DNA of 32,102 nucleotides from Anaerolineae bacterium CG2_30_57_67. Lineage in GTDB: Bacteria; Chloroflexota; Anaerolineae; Anaerolineales; Villigracilaceae. How positions within the stretch are numbered: position 1 is the stretch's first letter; each line of letters opens with the position of its first letter. Of this stretch, positions 2,914 through 31,898 are shown piece by piece. The notes under the pieces are model-generated. The model did not search any database. It was not told where the DNA came from and worked only from the letters and a program-made list of their open reading frames with translations. The stretch covers positions 1 through 32,102 of the forward strand of contig MNXJ01000030.1 of assembly GCA_001872455.1 (NCBI GenBank), in the 5' to 3' direction. The translations under genes and the position numbers were made by a program.

Positions 2914-3834
2914 ATGATTATCAACCTACTGCAAGCCGAATCATCCTCCGCGCCGCAAGAATCACTCTCCGGCTTCTTCTGGCGGCGCTTCCGCAAACAC
3001 GGCATGGCGCTGACGGGCAGCATCATTGCGCTCATCATCGTTTTGCTGGTCACTTTTGCGCCCTTTTTTACGCCCTACACGCCCTATCAGCAAGATTTGC
3101 TCAACCGCTTTCAGCCGCCCTCCGCCGAACATTGGATGGGCACCGACGACCTGGGGCGCGACATGTGGACGCGCGTCTTGTACGGCGGGCGCATCTCGCT
3201 CAGCGTTGGCCTGCTGGCGATGGGCGTTTCAATTATTTTTGGCTCGTTGATTGGCCTGGTCAGCGGCTATTACGGCGGCTGGGTGGATAGCATTCTGATG
3301 TGCATCACCGAGATTTTTCTATCCATTCCGCGCCTGTTTGTTCTGCTGGCGATGGGCATGATACTGCGCACGCTCAACCTGCCGAATATGTCAGCCGGTT
3401 CCTTTGTGCCGCTCTCAATTGTCATCGGCGCACTCTCCTGGATGGGAACCGCCCGCCTGGTACGCGCCTCCACCCTCGAACTGCGTGACCGCGAATTCGT
3501 GCAGGCTGCCCGCGCCCTGGGCGCCAGCGACGCGCGCGCTCTGCTCCAGCATATTTTTCCCAATGTCGCCAGCCCAATTATCGTCTCGGCTACGCTGGGG
3601 CTGGCGGGCGCCATCATCAGCGAAAGCGGCCTTTCGTACCTCGGCTTTGGCGTGCAACTGCCCACTCCCACCTGGGGCAACATGCTCTCCAATACCCAAA
3701 ATCAGATGACCACCGCCCCCTGGACGGCCATCTTCCCCGGGCTGATGATTTTCATCGTTGTCATCGCCATCAACTACCTTGGCGACGGCCTGCGCGACGC
3801 CCTCGACCCGCGCCACATTACAGAAAAAAAATGA
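2914..3834 (+). CDS. ABC transporter permease, DppC/OppC type
   Basis: Second permease subunit of the same importer, 306 residues. It has the DppC layout: a cytoplasmic N-terminus with FFWRRFRKHG, a first membrane helix, the HWMGTDDLGRDMWTRVLYGG motif near residues 71-90 that marks DppC proteins, further helices, and the EAA loop FVQAARALGASDARALLQHI followed by NVASPI. The C-terminus ends with GDGLRDALDPR, also typical. Its stop overlaps the start of the cyanophycinase-like gene by 4 bases (ATGA), so the two are probably translationally coupled. Substrate cannot be told from the permease sequence; the coupled S51 protein hints at peptides. Confidence 0.94.
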   Translation: MIINLLQAESSSAPQESLSGFFWRRFRKHGMALTGSIIALIIVLLVTFAPFFTPYTPYQQDLLNRFQPPSAEHWMGTDDLGRDMWTRVLYGGRISLSVGLLAMGVSIIFGSLIGLVSGYYGGWVDSILMCITEIFLSIPRLFVLLAMGMILRTLNLPNMSAGSFVPLSIVIGALSWMGTARLVRASTLELRDREFVQAARALGASDARALLQHIFPNVASPIIVSATLGLAGAIISESGLSYLGFGVQLPTPTWGNMLSNTQNQMTTAPWTAIFPGLMIFIVVIAINYLGDGLRDALDPRHITEKK

Positions 3835-5858
3835 AATTTCGCGCGCTCCTTCTCCTGCTTGCCTCGTTGTGTCTCGCCGCTTTTTTGCGCGTGCCCACGC
3901 CCGGCCTGCTGATTCCGATGGGCGGCGGCTACAGTGACGTATACGCCGGATTTTCCGCCGCCGCCGTCGCCAACGCCAAAAACAATCAGGTCAACCTGCT
4001 CGTCCTGCCCGGCCCCTACGCCAGCGACGCCATCAGCATTACCGATGCCGAACGCGCCACCAACCTCAAAGATGCGGAAGAACGCCGCTACCAGATTGAA
4101 GAAGCCTGCAAACGGGCGGCTACGCCGCCGCTCACCTGCCGGGCGATTCTCGCGCCGCTCTTCACCCGCGCCGACGCGGAAAACCCCGCCACCCTCAGCC
4201 TGCTGACCGATGACCTGGCCGCCGTCTTCATCCTCGGCGGCGACCAAACCGTCGCCATGCTGGCGCTCGCCGGCACCCCCGCCGAAACCCGCCTGATGGA
4301 ACTCTACCAAAACGGTGTCATCTTTGCCGGAACCAGCGCCGGGGGCGGAATGCAATCCGCCGCGATGATGGCCGGATACAACCCCAACTACGCCGCCGAC
4401 AACGCCCTGACCTTCGGCGCCGCTGACGTGTGGCACAGCCCCGAAAAACACGGCCTGCCCTTCGGCCTGCAAACCGCCATTCTCGACCAGCATTTTCATC
4501 AGCGCGGACGGCTGGGCCGCCTGCTGAACGCCATTCTTCAGCCCGACGCGCCGCATGTTGGCGTCGGCGTGGACGCCTACACCGGCGTTCTGGCGCAAAA
4601 CGAAACCCTGCGCGGCGTCTTCGGTCTGTACACCGTCACCATTCTGGACGCGGAAACCTACCACGCCGCGGACGGTGTGCAGTATGTTCAGGCCGAAGCA
4701 GGCCGCCCGCCGCTACTCTCGACGCGCAATATTCTCGTCAGCCTGCTCTCGCCCGGCGATTTTTCCTACGACCTGATCGCGCGCGCCGCCTCGTTGGCGC
4801 TTCCCGCCCCCAGCCTGGAACGCCGCTTCGAGGCGCTGCGCCTGCCCGAGGGCGCGGGCGCGCTGCTGCTCGCCGGAGATTTGTTCACCTCGCTGACTTC
4901 TTCCAATCCGATACTGACGGCTTTTTCTGGCTATACAAAAGATAAAAATGAACACTGGGCCATCATTGCCATCGGCTACCCGTCCGAAGCCTCCGCCCGG
5001 CGCGTCATCGAAACCTACCAGACCAACATCGCGCCCGAAAAAACCGTCACCGTCCTCATCGTCCCGGCCAATGACGGCGCGCCCGTCACCCTGCCCGCCG
5101 GGCTGACCGGCATTGTGCTGATTGGCAAAGACCAGTCGAAGGCCAACATCGCCGCCCTGGAGCCGATTCGGCAGGCCTGGCTGGCCGGTACACCGATTTT
5201 GGCCGATAACGCCGCCGCGCCGCTCTTGGGCGCGTTCTATTCCGCGCATGGGCCGACCTCCAAAGACGCGGAGGAAGCCGAACTGGCGACGCAAAAATCG
5301 TTCTGGCAGGGAAAAACCGACATCCGGCCCGGCCTGGCGCTGGTCAATCTCACGCTGGAGCCGCAATTGCTGGCCGATAACCGCTTTGGCCGCTGGTTTT
5401 CGCTGGCTTACAATCACCCCGATTTGCTGGCGATTGGGCTGAACCGCGACACCGCGCTCGAAATCACAGCCAGCGGCGCGCGCGTGTTGGGCGTCAACGA
5501 CATTTTAACGCTAGATTTCCGTTCCGCCGCGCTGGCGCTGGGGACGAACAACGGTTTCGTGGTTGCCAACGGCCTGCTGGATGTTTTCGCCCCCGGCGAG
5601 CAGGTTGCACCCGCTACTGCCGACGTAAACACCGCCTTCACGCCCGCGCCCACGCCAATGCTGTCCGCCCCGACCGCCACGCTCCCGGCGACCATTCTGC
5701 CAACCGCCAGCGCCCTGCCATCTGTGAGCACAGTTTTTCCCACACCAGTAACAACACCCGCGGCTGAATCTGCGCCATCTACCCCTTGGGGGCTCATTTT
5801 TGGGCTTGGGTTGATTCTTGCGGCAGGACTGGCGGCTAAATTTTTCAAACAACAGTAG
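3831..5858 (+). CDS. Membrane-anchored cyanophycinase-like protein (peptidase S51 family), tandem active and inactive domains
   Basis: 675 residues. An N-terminal hydrophobic segment (residues 4-18) acts as signal or anchor. The first S51-like domain (about 27-290) has ILGGDQ with Asp138, the nucleophile motif GTSAGG with Ser169, and LDQHF (Asp219-Phe222) followed by RGRLGRL, all as in cyanophycinase. A second domain (about 345-590) repeats the order in decayed form: LIGKDQ, ADNAAA where the serine should be (Ala461), EPQL in place of DQHF, and NRFGRW. A Thr/Pro-rich linker (about 600-650) leads to a C-terminal membrane helix and a KFFKQQ tail. S51 enzymes are serine peptidases that cut cyanophycin or Asp-containing peptides; here it would act outside the membrane. 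Overlap with the permease gene suggests products are imported. The exact substrate is inferred. Confidence 0.85.
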   Translation: MKFRALLLLLASLCLAAFLRVPTPGLLIPMGGGYSDVYAGFSAAAVANAKNNQVNLLVLPGPYASDAISITDAERATNLKDAEERRYQIEEACKRAATPPLTCRAILAPLFTRADAENPATLSLLTDDLAAVFILGGDQTVAMLALAGTPAETRLMELYQNGVIFAGTSAGGGMQSAAMMAGYNPNYAADNALTFGAADVWHSPEKHGLPFGLQTAILDQHFHQRGRLGRLLNAILQPDAPHVGVGVDAYTGVLAQNETLRGVFGLYTVTILDAETYHAADGVQYVQAEAGRPPLLSTRNILVSLLSPGDFSYDLIARAASLALPAPSLERRFEALRLPEGAGALLLAGDLFTSLTSSNPILTAFSGYTKDKNEHWAIIAIGYPSEASARRVIETYQTNIAPEKTVTVLIVPANDGAPVTLPAGLTGIVLIGKDQSKANIAALEPIRQAWLAGTPILADNAAAPLLGAFYSAHGPTSKDAEEAELATQKSFWQGKTDIRPGLALVNLTLEPQLLADNRFGRWFSLAYNHPDLLAIGLNRDTALEITASGARVLGVNDILTLDFRSAALALGTNNGFVVANGLLDVFAPGEQVAPATADVNTAFTPAPTPMLSAPTATLPATILPTASALPSVSTVFPTPVTTPAAESAPSTPWGLIFGLGLILAAGLAAKFFKQQ

Positions 5859-20723: not shown

Positions 20724-22058
20724 TTACAATTCTACAAAGTAAGATTTGGCGGCGCGGTCAATTAATTCGCGGTTCATTTCGGGTTCGATGTTGTTGTAGC
20801 GGGCAATGTCAATGATTTGGTCGCACAAGTCGCGCGGGTGTGAAGCGCGCAGTTTGCGGTTGCGTTTGATGTACCATTCCTGCAGCAAGTAGGCCAGCGC
20901 CTGGTCGTTATATTTTACGTTTTTGCTCTGCGCCACGCGCCGGAAAATTTCACGGTATTCTTCAAAGGTTGGGTCGCCAATTTCAATTTTATGGCGCAGA
21001 CGGCGCAAAAAGGCCTCGTCCACCAAATCTTTGGGCGGCAGGTTGGTGGAAAAAACCACCAGCGTATCGAAAGGCACTTCCAGCTTGCGACCGGTGTGCA
21101 GGGTCAAAAAATCCACCCGGTTTTCGAGCGGCACAATCCAGCGGTTGAGCAGGTCGCGCGGGCGCACTTGCTGACGGCCAAAGTCATCAATCAACAAAAT
21201 ACCGCCGTTGGCCTTGACCTGAAAAGGCGCTTCGTAATATTTGTGTACATCGTTGAAAACCAAATCCAGCCCGGCCAGAGTCAGTTCGCCGCCGACCACG
21301 ATGAAGGGACGTTTGATGTAAACCCAGCGAGGGTCGCGTCTCGAGCCGGAACGCAGCGAGCCGGTGCCAGACGCGGTGGCGTCTTCATCCGGCGCGCGCT
21401 GGTGATTGACGCTGTCGTAAAGCTTGATGACCTGCCCATCCACATACAGCGCAAAGGGGATAAACATATTTTGTTGCAGAATAAGGCTGCCAAAAGCGCG
21501 GGCGACGCTGGTTTTGCCGTTGCCGGGCGGCCCGTAGAGAAAAATGGACGTGCCAGAGTTAAGCGCCGGGCCGAGCCGCTCGAAGGTGGTGCTGGAAAGT
21601 ACCAATTGCGAGAGCAGGCGGCGCATTACGCTGACGGTAACCGGGGTGCGCTGACGGCTTTGACGGCGAATGGCCTGATTGTAGACTTCAATCGGCACCG
21701 GGGCCGGCCCGGCGTACTGACTGCGCTCCAGCGCCTCGCGGGCGTGTTCGACACCCAGACCGGTGATGGCGTATTGGTACGAGCCTTCGCCCAGCCCCAT
21801 TGAAGATGATTTGACTTCCACCAGCTTTTCACGCTTGAGGGCTTCCAAAATCAGATCAGTGACGCCTGCAAATGGCAGGGCAATTTCCTCGGCTACTTTG
21901 AAACCAGAAAGATAGCCCTGAAAATAGAGAATTTTGAGCGCCAGGTCTTGTAACCAAAGGGGGGAAAGGCCAGTATCGTCCAGTTTTGTGAGCGGAGGCG
22001 GCAAAAAAGCGGGGCCGGATGCACTGGATGGGACGGATGGGCGTGAGGGAAAGGTCAT
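20724..22058 (-). CDS. AAA-type ATPase of unknown role
   Basis: 444 residues. The N-terminal 130 residues contain a winged-helix-like part (LKILYFQGYLSGFKVAEEI; ALKREKLVEV) that may bind partner proteins. The ATPase core (about 150-380) has Walker A GPPGNGKTS (Lys182), a long insertion with a Ser/Gly/Arg-rich loop (about 220-240), Walker B ILLIDDFGRQQ, a sensor-like VVFSTNL, and an arginine-rich EAFLRRLRHKIEIG that supplies the arginine finger. The Walker B reads DD rather than the usual DE. A C-terminal helical lid ends FVEL. The ATG at 22058 has GGCAGGA before it. It begins the operon with the diesterase and GH3-like genes; what it remodels is not known. Confidence 0.82.
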   Translation of the reverse strand: MTFPSRPSVPSSASGPAFLPPPLTKLDDTGLSPLWLQDLALKILYFQGYLSGFKVAEEIALPFAGVTDLILEALKREKLVEVKSSSMGLGEGSYQYAITGLGVEHAREALERSQYAGPAPVPIEVYNQAIRRQSRQRTPVTVSVMRRLLSQLVLSSTTFERLGPALNSGTSIFLYGPPGNGKTSVARAFGSLILQQNMFIPFALYVDGQVIKLYDSVNHQRAPDEDATASGTGSLRSGSRRDPRWVYIKRPFIVVGGELTLAGLDLVFNDVHKYYEAPFQVKANGGILLIDDFGRQQVRPRDLLNRWIVPLENRVDFLTLHTGRKLEVPFDTLVVFSTNLPPKDLVDEAFLRRLRHKIEIGDPTFEEYREIFRRVAQSKNVKYNDQALAYLLQEWYIKRNRKLRASHPRDLCDQIIDIARYNNIEPEMNRELIDRAAKSYFVEL

Positions 22059-26711: not shown

Positions 26712-26801
26712 GCTAGTACCGGAACTTTCCGATTTTGTAGGGTAAAAACGGCTGAATTGCGCCGTTTTTACCCTACATCTTGATAAAGTTCCGGCGCTAG
26801 C
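26712..26801. repeat. Nested palindrome at the glnA 3' end
   Basis: The outer arms 26712-26728 and 26785-26801 match at 15 of 17 positions (GCTAG, then CCGGAACTTT). The inner arms GTAGGGTAAAAACGGC (26737-26752) and its exact complement (26761-26776) enclose an 8-base loop. The right outer arm runs over the glnA stop codon. It could act as a glnA terminator, or be a small mobile palindromic repeat. The stretch between the two genes (26615-26796) holds only this and the preceding hairpin. Confidence 0.65.
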
Positions 26802-28209
26802 AGTCGAAGTACAGCGTAAATTCGTAGGGGGTTGGCCGCATCCGAATCGGGTCAAGCTCATTTTTGCGTTTATATTCGATGTAGGCTTCGAGCAAGTCCG
26901 GGGTGAAAACATCACCTTTGAGTAAGAATTCGTGGTCGGCTTCGAGCGCATTGAGGACGTCAGCCAGTGAGCCGGGAACCTGTTTGATGAGCTTGGCTTC
27001 CTCAGCGGGCAGTTCATACAAATCTTTATCGTGCGGTTCGCCCGGGTCAATCCGATTTTGAATGCCGTCAAGCCCGGCCATCAATATCGCCGCAAAACAC
27101 AGGTACGGATTGCTGGAAGCGTCGGGCGCGCGAAATTCGACGCGCTTGGCCTTGACGCTTTTCGTGACCGGAATGCGGCAAATGGCTGAACGATTGCGCT
27201 GTGAATAGGCCAAGTTCACTGGCGCCTCGTAGCCTGGCACCAGTCGCCGGAAGGAATTGGTGGTTGGCGAAGTCAACGCCAGCAGGGCGGGCGCGTGTTT
27301 GAGAATGCCGCCGATGTAGTATTTGGCCGTATCCGATAGCCCGGCGTAGCCGGCAGCGTCGTAGAAGACGTTGGTGCCCGCTTTCCACAGTGATGAATGG
27401 ACGTGCATGCCCGATCCATTATCGCCGAAGAGCGGCTTGGGCATAAAGGTCACGGTTTTCCCATTTTGGCGGGCGACATTTTTGGCGATGTATTTGTAGA
27501 GCAATAAATTATCTGCCATGCGTGTTAGCGTGGTGAAACGCATGCCCAACTCCACCTGCCCGGCGCTGGCAACTTCATGGTGGTGAATTTCCATTTCCAC
27601 CCCGGCCTCTTCGAGCGCCATTACGATTTTCGAGCGCACGTCCTGCAGCGTATCCGTGGGCGGCACGGGGAAGTAACCGCGTTTGGGCGAAATCTGCCCG
27701 CCGAAATTCTGTTTATCGGCGCGTCCGCTATTCCACCAGCCTTCTTCACTGTCAATGTAATAAAAAGATTCGTAGGTGTTATTTGAATAGCGAATGTTAT
27801 CGAAAATGAAAAATTCGGCTTCCGGCCCCATAAACACAGTATCAGCGATGCCAGTTTTCTTCAGGTAGGCTTCTGCTTTGCGGGCGACATAGCGCGGGTC
27901 GCGGGCATACGGTTGCAGTGTAATCGGGTCGAGTACGTCACAAGTGATGACCAGTGTTGGAATGTTGGCAACCGGGTCAACAAAGGCTGTTTCCGGGTCG
28001 GGCATCAGCAACATATCTGATTCGTGAATTTCCTGAAAGCCGCGAATGGACGAGCCGTCAAATGGAATTCCATCGGCAAAGAAATCATCGTCAAAGCGAT
28101 GTACCGGAATGGTAAAGTGCTGCCATTGTCCCGGCAGGTCGGTGAAACGAATATCCACCATTTTTACATTTTTTGCCAGTGCGAGTGCTTCTTTTGCGGT
28201 TTTAGCCAT
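26797..28209 (-). CDS. glnA: Glutamine synthetase, type I
   Basis: 470 residues, the length of bacterial GSI. It makes glutamine from glutamate, ammonia and ATP as a dodecamer. Seen: [19 protein letters not shown] near the start, [10 protein letters not shown], the metal-binding [20 protein letters not shown], the [12 protein letters not shown] signature, and NRSAICRIP with RVEFRAPD. The adenylylation loop reads [10 protein letters not shown], with Tyr398 matching E. coli Tyr397 (numbered without Met), so the enzyme should be shut off by adenylylation. The gene coding for that enzyme (glnE) lies divergently upstream, which fits. The ATG at 28209 has AAGGAG 7 bases before it. Third-position GC is slightly lower than in neighbouring genes. 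Confidence 0.98.
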
Positions 28210-28241
28210 CGTTATTCTCCTTAGGTTGTTTTTTTGTAATT

Positions 28242-28253
28242 GTTCAGGTGAAC
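28242..28253. promoter_or_regulatory. Small inverted repeat in the glnA leader, possible operator
   Basis: GTTCA-GG-TGAAC is a perfect 5+5 inverted repeat 33 bases before the glnA start, and CCTGAAC recurs inverted at 28276-28282. It may be a regulator site or, in RNA, a leader hairpin. There is no match I can name. Confidence 0.3.
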
Positions 28254-28313
28254 GACTTTTTGCTTGCGCCGCGCGCCTGAACGGTTACGAGAACCATTAT
28301 TTTTGACGGGCGG

Positions 28314-28319
28314 ATTATA
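28314..28319 (-). promoter_or_regulatory. -10 box of glnA
   Basis: TATAAT on the minus strand, 105 bases before the glnA start; transcription would begin near 28307 and give a leader of about 98 bases. No good -35 is seen at 16-18 bp, which may mean activator dependence. Confidence 0.45.
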
Positions 28320-28363
28320 CGGAGTTTTGCATTGGCTCGTCTAGTACCCAAATGGAGCATATT

Positions 28364-28391
28364 TTGAACACCAGAGTTGACCAGTTATAAT
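28364..28391 (+). promoter_or_regulatory. Promoter of glnE (leaderless type)
   Basis: TTGAAC (28364-28369), a 16-bp spacer and a perfect TATAAT (28386-28391) that ends 6 bases before the ATG at 28398. This is the best two-part promoter on the plus strand and predicts an mRNA beginning at the start codon. Confidence 0.65.
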
Positions 28392-28397
28392 TCGTCT

Positions 28398-31300
28398 ATG
28401 CAATTCACCGACCTATCTGTTTTCAGTGACCCCCTTGCCGCATCCATCGGATTAAATCGTCTGGCTGAACGTTGTCCGAAGGGCGTTGAAAGCATTTTTA
28501 CGCCTTTGCAGGCGGCTCTTTGCGCCGCCGCTGCCCCGAATCGTTCTCTGATTAATTTTGAACGCTTTGCCGAAAACTATGGCCCCGATTTGTTCCCTGT
28601 TCTGTGCGCCAATCCGCGCGTCATCGAAATTCTAGTTACGCTTTTCTCTACCAGCCAGTTCCTGACCGAAATTTTACTGCGCAGCCCCCAAGCGCTTGCC
28701 ATTTTGCTTGACCGCCAGGTTTTGACACAGCGAAAAACCATTGAGCAATTTCAGTCAGAATCGGAAGCGTTCGCGTCATCCAACCCGTTGAGCGCCCTTC
28801 ATCGCTACCAGCACGCAGAACTGCTCCGCATTGGCGCTTGTGATTTTCTCGGCCTGTATGACCTTTCCGCTGTTGTTTCGCAGCTTTCGCGTTTGGCGGT
28901 AGGGCTTATTCGCGCCAGCTTGCGCCGCGCCGCGCGTCAGACCGGCATTTCGCCAGATGGCTTTGTCGTCCTTGCCATGGGAAAACTTGGCGGGCGTGAA
29001 CTCAATTACAGCTCTGATATTGATTTGCTCTTCCTCGCCAGAGATGATTTGACGAATTACCTGCCCCTGGCGCAAAGGCTGATTGAACTCCTTTCTGCCG
29101 CCACCGCTGAAGGTTTTCTCTATCGTGTAGACATGCGCTTGCGCCCCTGGGGCAAAGATGGCCCGCTGGTTCCCACCCTTTTGGGTTATATGCGGTATCT
29201 TGAGAAAAATGCCCGCCTGTGGGAAAAACAATCTCTGCTCAAAATTCGCCCCATTGCGGGGGACCTGGCTTTGGGGGAGCGTCTGCGCGAGTTGATTCAA
29301 CCGCATCTTTTCAATACTCCTGCCGAAGAATTGCGCGCGGGCGTGTTTGCCATGAAAAATCGCACCGAAAAATTTCTCAAAGACAAGGGGCGCGAATGGG
29401 GTGAAGTTAAATTGGGCGTTGGTTCGATCCGTGATGTCGAATTTGTCGTCCAATATCTGCAACTGGCAAACGTCAGCCGTTACCCACAAATTCGCACCCG
29501 CGCTACGCTGAAGGGTTTGCGCCTGCTTCGCGCCGCCGGGCTGCTCACCATCGTCGAAACGCGCATTCTCACCGATGGGTACATTTTTCTCCGCACCATC
29601 GAACATCACCTGCAGATGATGGAATATCGCCAGACCGATACCCTGCCAACCGAACCTGCCGCGATTGCTTTTTTGGCGCGCCGCCTCGGATTTGATTCTG
29701 GCGAAAAATTCATTGAGCGCTACCAGGAACATTGCCACGCCATCCGCGCCATTTATTTGCGCCAGATGGGCACTGAATCCGTCTCTGATGAGCCGTCGCC
29801 CGTCGTTGCCCGTCACCTTGCTCGCATGGACGTCTCCTATGCTGAAACTTTTTCGCTGCAAGAAATTCAACGTCATGCCGGGTTGGCCCAAAAATTGACT
29901 GAAAAAATTCCGGCAGTGGTTGAAGCGCTGGCTGTGGCAGCCGATACCTGGCGCGTCACCATCGTGGGCTATGACTACCCCGGCGAACTCTCCATTCTCT
30001 GCGGCCTGTTTTTTGTCTACGGATTTGATATTTTGGCTGGCGACGTTTTTACCTATGAACCCGCTGATTCCGCGCACCTCGCCGACATGCGCCAAAAAAT
30101 TGTAGATATTTTCACCGTTAAATCGGTTTTTTTTGAACCTCCCGGCGCGGCGCTGTGGCAAACCTACACGGATGATCTATTTGCGCTTCTTGGCCTTTTC
30201 CGCGCCGGGCAGCGCCGTGAGGCTCGTGGGCAGCTTGCCCGACGGGTGGGCGCCGCTTTTCAATCTGTTCCCGGCAAGATAGCCCCACTCTATCCCATAG
30301 ACATCGAAATAGACAACCACGCCTCCGAGCGCTACACCGTTTTACGCATTGATGCTCCCGACACCATTGGTTTTCTGTATGAATTTACCAATGCCCTGGC
30401 CATGACGCGCACCAATATCGTTCGCGTCATGGTTAGCTCTGCTGGCAATCGTGTTCACGATGTTCTCTACGTCACCAACGCCGACGGAAACAAAATTGTA
30501 GATACTCAAAAGCAACGCGAATTGCGCGCCGCCGTCGTGCTTATCAAACACTTTACCCACCTCCTGCCCAATTCACCCAATCCCGAAGCCGCCCTGCTCC
30601 ACTTCCGTGAATTTCTCGCGCAACTGTTTCAGCGCCCCAACTGGCCGGATGAACTTGCCTCCATCGAACGCTCTGACGTTTTACGCGCTTTGGCGAGAGT
30701 GCTTGGCGTGAGTGACTTTTTGTGGGATGATTTTTTGCGGATGCAATATGCCAATCTTTTCCCCGTTGTCCGTGATGTAGATGCCCTTGCCTCCCAAAAG
30801 TCGCGCCCACGCCTCGAAGCAGATTTGGCGACTGCGTTGCAAACCTGCTCCCTCGGCGAAATTACCTTTTCGGATTGGCGCGCCGCCCTCAATGCGTTCA
30901 AAGACCGCGAACTCTTTCGTACGGATATGCGTCATATTCTGGGATTGACCGCCGAGTTTTGGGATTTCGCCGCTGAACTCACTGACCTAGCCGAAGCCAT
31001 CGTCTCGGCTGCTTTTCAGCGTTGCGCGCTGGAACTGGTCGCCTCGCACCCTCAAACGGAATTGTCCTCCGGGATGGCTGTCTTTGCTCTCGGAAAATGT
31101 GGCGGGCGCGAGTTGGGGTTTGCCTCCGATATCGAATTGATGTTTGTCTACGCGGACAGCGGCCACCCGTCTACCGATGTTTGTGAAAAGCTGGTGCAAA
31201 ATATTCTAGCCACCATTCAGTCGCGCCAGGAGGGCATTTTTCAACTTGACTTGCAATTGCGTCCTTATGGCAAAGCCGGCAGTCTATCTGTCTCGCTGGA

Positions 31301-31898
31301 TAGTTTTCGCCGCTACTACGCGCCAGAAGGTCCAGCCTGGGCTTATGAACGCCAGGCGCTGGTTAAACTACGTCCCGTCGCGGGCGATTTGGCTTTCGTC
31401 GCTCAGGTTTGTGATTTGCGCGACCAATACGTTTATCAGCCGGGTGCGTTTGATGTGACCGCCATGCGTGCCATGCGTGAACGTCAGGTGCGTCACCTTG
31501 TGCGCGGGGGAACCTTCAACGCCAAATACAGCCCTGGCGGGCTGGTGGATGTTGAATATCTGATTCAGGGGTTGCAAATCAATCACGGCTGGCAGTTGCC
31601 TGCCGCCCGCGCTCCCAATTCGCGCGCCGCCATGTCTGCGCTTCACGCCGCTGGCCTTCTCTCTGAAGATGATTACATTCGTCTTCGCAAAGCGCACACC
31701 TTTCTACACTGGTTGATTGACTCGCTTCGGGTGGTGCGCGGTAATTCTAAAGACATCACTGTGCCCCCTTACGCCAGCGACGAGTTTTTCTTTCTCGCGC
31801 GCCGCTTGCGCTACGAGAGCGATATTGACCGTCTGCGCGACGACCTTTCGCGCTATTCGCATGATGTGCAAGAAATTAATCGTCGCTTGCTGGCTTGA
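28398..31898 (+). CDS. glnE: Glutamine synthetase adenylyltransferase/adenylyl-removing enzyme with inserted ACT domains
   Basis: 1166 residues, clearly longer than E. coli GlnE (about 946). It adds or removes AMP on the glutamine-synthetase tyrosine. The N-terminal module has GKLGGRELNYSSDIDLLF (Asp207, Asp209), DMRLRPWGKDGPL and SIRDVEFVVQYLQL. The C-terminal module has GKCGGRELGFASDIELMF (Asp911, Glu913), DLQLRPYGKAGSL and GGLVDVEYLIQGLQI; its metal motif is DxE, not DxD. Between them lie two segments that look like ACT domains of GlnD: about 516-580 (WRVTIVGYDYPGELSIL; IVDIFTVK) and about 644-715 (YTVLRIDAPDTIGFLYEF). ACT domains of GlnD sense glutamine. The ATG at 28398 was chosen from the promoter; an ATG at 28377 lies ahead of the -10 box. 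Confidence 0.93.
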   Translation: MQFTDLSVFSDPLAASIGLNRLAERCPKGVESIFTPLQAALCAAAAPNRSLINFERFAENYGPDLFPVLCANPRVIEILVTLFSTSQFLTEILLRSPQALAILLDRQVLTQRKTIEQFQSESEAFASSNPLSALHRYQHAELLRIGACDFLGLYDLSAVVSQLSRLAVGLIRASLRRAARQTGISPDGFVVLAMGKLGGRELNYSSDIDLLFLARDDLTNYLPLAQRLIELLSAATAEGFLYRVDMRLRPWGKDGPLVPTLLGYMRYLEKNARLWEKQSLLKIRPIAGDLALGERLRELIQPHLFNTPAEELRAGVFAMKNRTEKFLKDKGREWGEVKLGVGSIRDVEFVVQYLQLANVSRYPQIRTRATLKGLRLLRAAGLLTIVETRILTDGYIFLRTIEHHLQMMEYRQTDTLPTEPAAIAFLARRLGFDSGEKFIERYQEHCHAIRAIYLRQMGTESVSDEPSPVVARHLARMDVSYAETFSLQEIQRHAGLAQKLTEKIPAVVEALAVAADTWRVTIVGYDYPGELSILCGLFFVYGFDILAGDVFTYEPADSAHLADMRQKIVDIFTVKSVFFEPPGAALWQTYTDDLFALLGLFRAGQRREARGQLARRVGAAFQSVPGKIAPLYPIDIEIDNHASERYTVLRIDAPDTIGFLYEFTNALAMTRTNIVRVMVSSAGNRVHDVLYVTNADGNKIVDTQKQRELRAAVVLIKHFTHLLPNSPNPEAALLHFREFLAQLFQRPNWPDELASIERSDVLRALARVLGVSDFLWDDFLRMQYANLFPVVRDVDALASQKSRPRLEADLATALQTCSLGEITFSDWRAALNAFKDRELFRTDMRHILGLTAEFWDFAAELTDLAEAIVSAAFQRCALELVASHPQTELSSGMAVFALGKCGGRELGFASDIELMFVYADSGHPSTDVCEKLVQNILATIQSRQEGIFQLDLQLRPYGKAGSLSVSLDSFRRYYAPEGPAWAYERQALVKLRPVAGDLAFVAQVCDLRDQYVYQPGAFDVTAMRAMRERQVRHLVRGGTFNAKYSPGGLVDVEYLIQGLQINHGWQLPAARAPNSRAAMSALHAAGLLSEDDYIRLRKAHTFLHWLIDSLRVVRGNSKDITVPPYASDEFFFLARRLRYESDIDRLRDDLSRYSHDVQEINRRLLA

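Follow-up and report, generated by a model that had tools for sequence, protein, structure and literature searches.

GS adenylylation by a two-cycle cascade is textbook metabolic signalling, and in E. coli the state of PII is set by GlnD. The window analysed here, a 32,102-nucleotide stretch of DNA from Anaerolineae bacterium CG2_30_57_67, carries a long glnE gene, and the question is whether the same control may be exerted by GlnE itself. The original prediction, made from the letters of the DNA, had described a 1166-residue enzyme with about 220 residues more than E. coli GlnE, had placed two GlnD-like ACT stretches in the extra part, and had suggested that the protein may read glutamine directly, without the GlnD/PII relay.

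Modules and catalytic sites of the window's GlnE

The glnE gene (28398..31898, forward strand) is an unbroken frame coding for 1166 aa and thus exceeds E. coli K-12 GlnE, which has 946 aa as counted from its coordinates, by the predicted 220 residues. Pfam recognised two GlnE and two GlnD_UR_UTase stretches in the protein, which as a whole passed the NCBIfam GlnE equivalog with 498.2 bits (cut-off 487), and it shares with E. coli GlnE the two modules composed of a nucleotidyltransferase and UR_UTase helices. The N-terminal module (residues 1-457; 28398..29768, forward strand; Pfam) contains Asp207, Asp209 and Asp245 and is by homology the putative deadenylylase (AR). It is followed by a helical linker (residues 466-505; 29793..29912, forward strand) that aligns with the GlnD segment joining HD to ACT, and by ACT domain 1 (residues about 506-640; 29913..30317, forward strand), which was delimited by structure prediction and whose β1-α1 loop, DYPGEL, includes Asp526 and Gly529. 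ACT domain 2 (residues about 646-725; 30333..30572, forward strand) is supported by both PF24931 and the predicted structure, and its β1-α1 loop, DAPDTIGFLYEF, includes Asp655 and Gly658. The C-terminal module (residues 726-1166; 30573..31895, forward strand), by homology the putative adenylyltransferase (AT), comprises a helical arm, a nucleotidyltransferase with Asp911, Glu913 and Asp951, and UR_UTase helices. The insert is flanked by the first UR_UTase helical domain (324-452) on its N-terminal side and by the second nucleotidyltransferase on its C-terminal side.

We compared catalytic residues in an alignment of 100 rows with few duplicates (102 of 106 sequences are distinct, including six that lack the AR module). 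The triads D-D-D (AR) and D-E-D (AT) were present in every readable row (95-98 of the 100), and Asp207, Asp209 and Asp245 were D in all 95, 95 and 96 readable rows, respectively; judged by these residues, the catalytic sites of both modules are intact in the window's GlnE. The AT motif reads DxE in 27/27 ACT-type and 3/3 AR-less AT modules, whereas all 21 ordinary AT modules have DxD, which marks the AT-site Glu, at the level of the alignment, as a signature of the ACT-type clade.

The stretch of residues about 466-725 corresponds to the GlnD tail, made up of the linker and two ACT domains. Six NCBIfam GlnD models matched at E < 1e-4 (values for the whole protein) with the insert as their best stretch, and four of them cover most of it; NF003467 places residues 455-714 on GlnD 677-920 (1.7e-32) and TIGR01693 places residues 466-712 on model positions 616-844 (2.1e-28). 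Since the TIGR01693 matches jump from 113-321 to 616-844, skipping about 322-615, the HD domain of GlnD is passed over, and no HD domain for uridylyl removal was found in the window's GlnE by this match. PF24931, an ACT-like domain, scored above its cut-off at 636-711 (32.8 bits vs 27), and PF01842 (ACT) below (21.8 bits vs 27). When predicted alone from 48 aligned sequences, the insert folded into two β-α-β-β-α units with a mean pLDDT of 90.7. The full-length model reached a mean pLDDT of 83.2 with a pTM of only 0.52, which is too low to fix how the modules are placed relative to each other. The GlnD models and the confident fold bear out the two ACT stretches of the original prediction, and the pair is, in its sequence, real and GlnD-derived.

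The predicted insert also resembles other tandem-ACT proteins in fold (VIA-align Z 7.1-10.5), including ones regulated by amino acids; these proteins are aspartate kinase (Z 10.5), threonine deaminase (Z 8.9), large glutamate dehydrogenase (Z 8.7), the isoleucine-bound regulatory domain of threonine dehydratase (Z 8.2) and arginine-bound CASTOR1 (Z 7.1, within the range below 8 that the tool calls common), but the catalytic parts of these proteins are unrelated to those of ACT-type GlnE. Foldseek returned five matches at E <= 0.001, all to large glutamate dehydrogenase, and sequence matches to the insert profile in the PDB did not exceed chance level (best E 0.21). ACT domains bind many amino acids, and the closest solved structures, by their titles, bind isoleucine, arginine or lysine/threonine-type effectors. 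It is conceivable from this, if improbable, that the pair senses another amino acid or metabolite, for instance a different nitrogen end product, and that GS feedback comes from that signal; in an unrooted tree of the ACT region the GlnE branch separated cleanly from 16 GlnDs (100/100), so specificity may differ. Glutamine is nevertheless favoured by the insert's relatives among curated families, which are GlnD models, by the substrate GlnA, which makes glutamine, and by the response of GlnE to glutamine elsewhere (PMC6490700).

The ACT loop glycines were kept in nearly all rows (Gly529 in 99/100, Gly658 in 96/100), with Val replacing Gly529 in locus L198. A divergent ACT-type subset (L192, L246, L247 and L248) carries Met in place of Gly658. 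In PGDH the equivalent glycine is the place where Ser binds (PMC3173338). Being widespread among ACT domains, this glycine is no guide to which amino acid is bound.

Genomic context and distribution of ACT-type GlnE

Divergently from glnE, the window encodes a 470-aa GlnA (26797..28209, reverse strand; Pfam), in which Tyr398 lies within KDLYELP. The substrate of GlnE thus adjoins it with its target Tyr in place, another trait shared with the GlnE family, and the predicted neighbour with an intact Tyr398 was recovered. Among the best 80 loci introduced below, glnA was found in the flank at 39, many loci being short, and Tyr398 was kept at all 36 readable ones. The intergenic region (28210..28397) contains the conserved motif TACCCAAATGGAGCA at 28345-28359. 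More generally, the motif TACCCAAAYGGRK, in some loci as the palindrome TACCCAAACGGGTA, occurs upstream of glnA (e.g. window 28345-28359, L050:4455, L051:4524, L055:4560 and L098:4383), and the pattern was found at 38 loci out of 254, several of which overlap. In L029, copies at 1363 and 3252 flank frames with PII and a 418-aa neighbour. TACCCAAAYGGRK is a candidate nitrogen-regulator site. Elsewhere in the window, two frames of 675 and 444 aa (3831-5858, forward strand, and 20724-22058, reverse strand) had no Pfam match at E <= 1e-5.

Scanned with the insert profile, named genomes gave 186 matches, the best 80 of which we analysed. The AT module followed the insert in the same frame at 80/80 of these loci and the AR module preceded it at 78/80, the contig end falling within the insert in the remaining two, so that their frames begin there; with such counts the order is more than chance. 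The window's source is a draft genome of 87 contigs, from which two genes might have been fused by assembly or gene calling; the probability of such an artefact is negligible, and the same module order in the 78 independent loci, which include the complete or isolate genomes of Leptolinea sp. HRD-7 (L068) and Anaerolinea thermolimosa IMO-1 (L119), refutes it. As the genomes are labelled, 72 of the best 80 loci belong to Chloroflexota and eight to others, namely Planctomycetota, Acidobacteriota including Thermoanaerobaculia, and one labelled Nitrospinota.

Because these loci were selected through the insert, they are silent on the frequency of ordinary GlnE, for which we used the Pfam GlnE domain instead. 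In Chloroflexota, 12 of 400 sampled genomes had a match: eight genes with two modules, three ACT-ACT-AT genes without AR and one contig-end fragment. All eight two-module genes carried the insert. In Planctomycetota, a match was found in 58 of 149 genomes, with two matches within one gene in 53; the gap between them was long (1366-1516 bases) in eight and ordinary (814-991) in 45. Profiles confirmed the insert in seven of the long-gap genes and, for the eighth, in locus L114; three further genes were AR-less. The insert profile matched neither the 20 ordinary Planctomycetota genes that were read (of 45) nor E. coli GlnE, so the insert is not common to all ordinary GlnE proteins. Acidobacteriota yielded a match in 82 of 297 genomes, at least 12 of them with a gap of ~1.5 kb, and the profile confirmed the insert in all four of those that were read (L121 and L246-L248). 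One of these, L121:2233-8193, encodes an ACT-type GlnE of 1986 aa whose ~840 N-terminal residues have no Pfam match at E <= 0.01.

In a module tree of 114 rows built with a quick method, 26 of the 27 ACT-type AR modules grouped in one starred branch; the 27th, L192, fell outside on a long branch of its own. The ACT-type AT modules, 27 in number, all joined three AR-less ones in another branch. These trees are unrooted or quick-method and contain L192 and L215 as long branches, so that gain and loss of the ACT pair are not separable by them. The insert is the mark of one GlnE clade, seen in Chloroflexota, Planctomycetota and Acidobacteriota, and is not unique to the window.

ACT-ACT-AT proteins without the deadenylylase module were seen in three Chloroflexota and three Planctomycetota genomes (L215:3499-6132, L216:3656-5670, L217:3680-6277, L252:2112-5486, L253:1055-4189 and L254:2212-4509). 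No GlnA was found in the examined flanks of these six loci. They are possibly one-way adenylyltransferases, or act on another substrate.

GlnD and PII in genomes with ACT-type GlnE

The window's genome, a draft with 98.4% completeness, yielded no GlnD outside glnE, the UR_UTase domain being found in glnE only, and no frame in it reached the cut-off of the PII family. Its one PII-like frame scored 21.8 bits against a cut-off of 25 and was rejected as GlnB; it also lacks what we take to be the usual T-loop sequence. Among 61 relatives, the window's genome included, the gene was present in 12, with a contig-end GlnE fragment in a 13th; GlnD was above cut-off in none of the 61, and PII exceeded 80 bits in five, two of which (G014 and G058) are among the 12 with ACT-type GlnE. 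We further chose 50 genomes from the 80 loci, 42 labelled Chloroflexota and eight others. Chloroflexota with ACT-type GlnE had GlnD in 0/42 and PII (E <= 1e-8) in 9/42, and GlnD (above cut-off) together with PII was present in 8/8 tested genomes of the other phyla. In the sample of 400 Chloroflexota genomes, scored with two GlnD candidates per genome, GlnD passed its cut-off in one, and three had a GlnD-like protein that lacks the N-terminal part; the 12 genomes with GlnE include none of these four. GlnD-like proteins that match only 360-849 of the model and lack the nucleotidyltransferase were seen in three Chloroflexota genomes of one genus (L189, L190, L191 and L227:2473-4656), and in the L227 protein Pfam found ACT alone. 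Since the genomes are drafts or representatives, single absences are weak; the overall pattern is not.

The idea that the insert is tied to loss of GlnD everywhere was rejected, as GlnD and PII are kept in the eight tested non-Chloroflexota genomes, and for the same reason the ACT sensor is not always a replacement for the relay. These eight genomes also fit a different and rather unlikely account, namely that the ACT pair is a ligand-free structural or dimerisation module and that control of GlnE falls to PII in genomes that have it, to a glutamine response of its own as in E. coli, or to expression. The model retains the helical arm in front of the AT module, so a PII-binding region may remain, and a loop glycine is lost in some members. 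This account is at odds with the near-invariance of both ACT loop glycines and aspartates across three phyla, and in most genomes of the window's lineage PII is absent and could not take over.

We also compared constraint on the ACT region. ACT identity was 0.54 in Chloroflexota (1099 pairs) vs 0.42 in Planctomycetota (12 pairs), at equal catalytic identity (0.55-0.60). When L193 and L198 were left out the ACT value was 0.48 and the gap between phyla shrank, and among the three genomes in which GlnD and PII were seen it was 0.51 on one pair, with the gap nearly gone. As the gap shrinks in this way, we give the comparison little weight. It fits, weakly, a heavier sensor burden where GlnD is absent; support for a clear relaxation of the ACT region in the presence of GlnD was weak, and we set that idea aside.

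A proposed one-protein switch for glutamine synthetase

Collectively, our data suggest, at a probability of roughly 60%, that the protein is a bifunctional GS adenylyltransferase/deadenylylase of its own GlnE clade, whose GlnD-type tandem ACT between the modules most likely binds glutamine and sets the balance of adenylylation and deadenylylation. Glutamine would bind the ACT pair at the loops around Gly529 and Gly658, and ligand binding would move the two catalytic modules; at high glutamine the C-terminal module would adenylylate GlnA at Tyr398, and at low glutamine the N-terminal module would deadenylylate it. We infer the ligand, the direction of switching and the activity. GlnD senses glutamine, probably via its ACT domains (PMC3173338), and has one glutamine site (PMC4285133); in ACT-type GlnE a sensor of this kind is placed between the two modules. 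In the window's lineage, GS control would be a one-cycle switch in one protein, without uridylyltransferase and mostly without PII. Because the ACT pair is real, GlnD is missing, no PII exceeds its cut-off and Tyr398 is kept, the window's genome is best read as one in which amino-acid input reaches GlnE directly, with no GlnD/PII relay. The original prediction is thus supported in part, and for the window's lineage the interpretation is plausible; it is not supported as a general rule, given GlnD and PII in 8/8 genomes of other phyla and PII in 9/42 Chloroflexota.

E. coli GlnE differs in having no insert-profile match and in receiving its signal from PII and PII-UMP, which set the switch between its activities (PMC12409994); ACT-type GlnE also departs from it in the AT site, with DxE in place of DxD. 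In Proteobacteria, glutamine stimulates adenylylation by GlnE without ACT domains (PMC6490700), and direct reading of glutamine by GlnE is for that reason not in itself new. With GlnD, ACT-type GlnE shares the N-terminal nucleotidyltransferase and UR_UTase helices followed by the linker and two ACT domains. It differs in lacking HD (model positions about 320-560), in having a second nucleotidyltransferase, in carrying the tandem ACT internally rather than C-terminally, and in that its ACT region and modules branch apart from those of GlnD. We tentatively consider, as a doubtful yet possible scenario, that ACT-type GlnE is a self-contained glutamine switch of sensor, writer and eraser, a one-cycle form of the UTase/PII/ATase cascade. 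As GlnD without HD is collinear with residues 1-725, ACT-type GlnE may also descend from the common stock of the two-protein cascade instead of having acquired a GlnD tail late; on this view the AR-less ACT-AT proteins are one-way forms.

In the open-licence papers searched, we found no earlier description of GlnE proteins that carry a GlnD-type sensor internally or of an ACT-bearing GlnE architecture, although domain databases may already contain it. The finding bears on nitrogen control in Chloroflexota, which is little described in these papers, and with ACT-type GlnE the origin of the cascade becomes open to experiment. Its ACT domains may do the work for which E. coli employs separate sensor proteins and, if this is true, a widespread GlnE clade, in genomes that lack GlnD and mostly PII too, would show that the same control of GS can run as a single protein.
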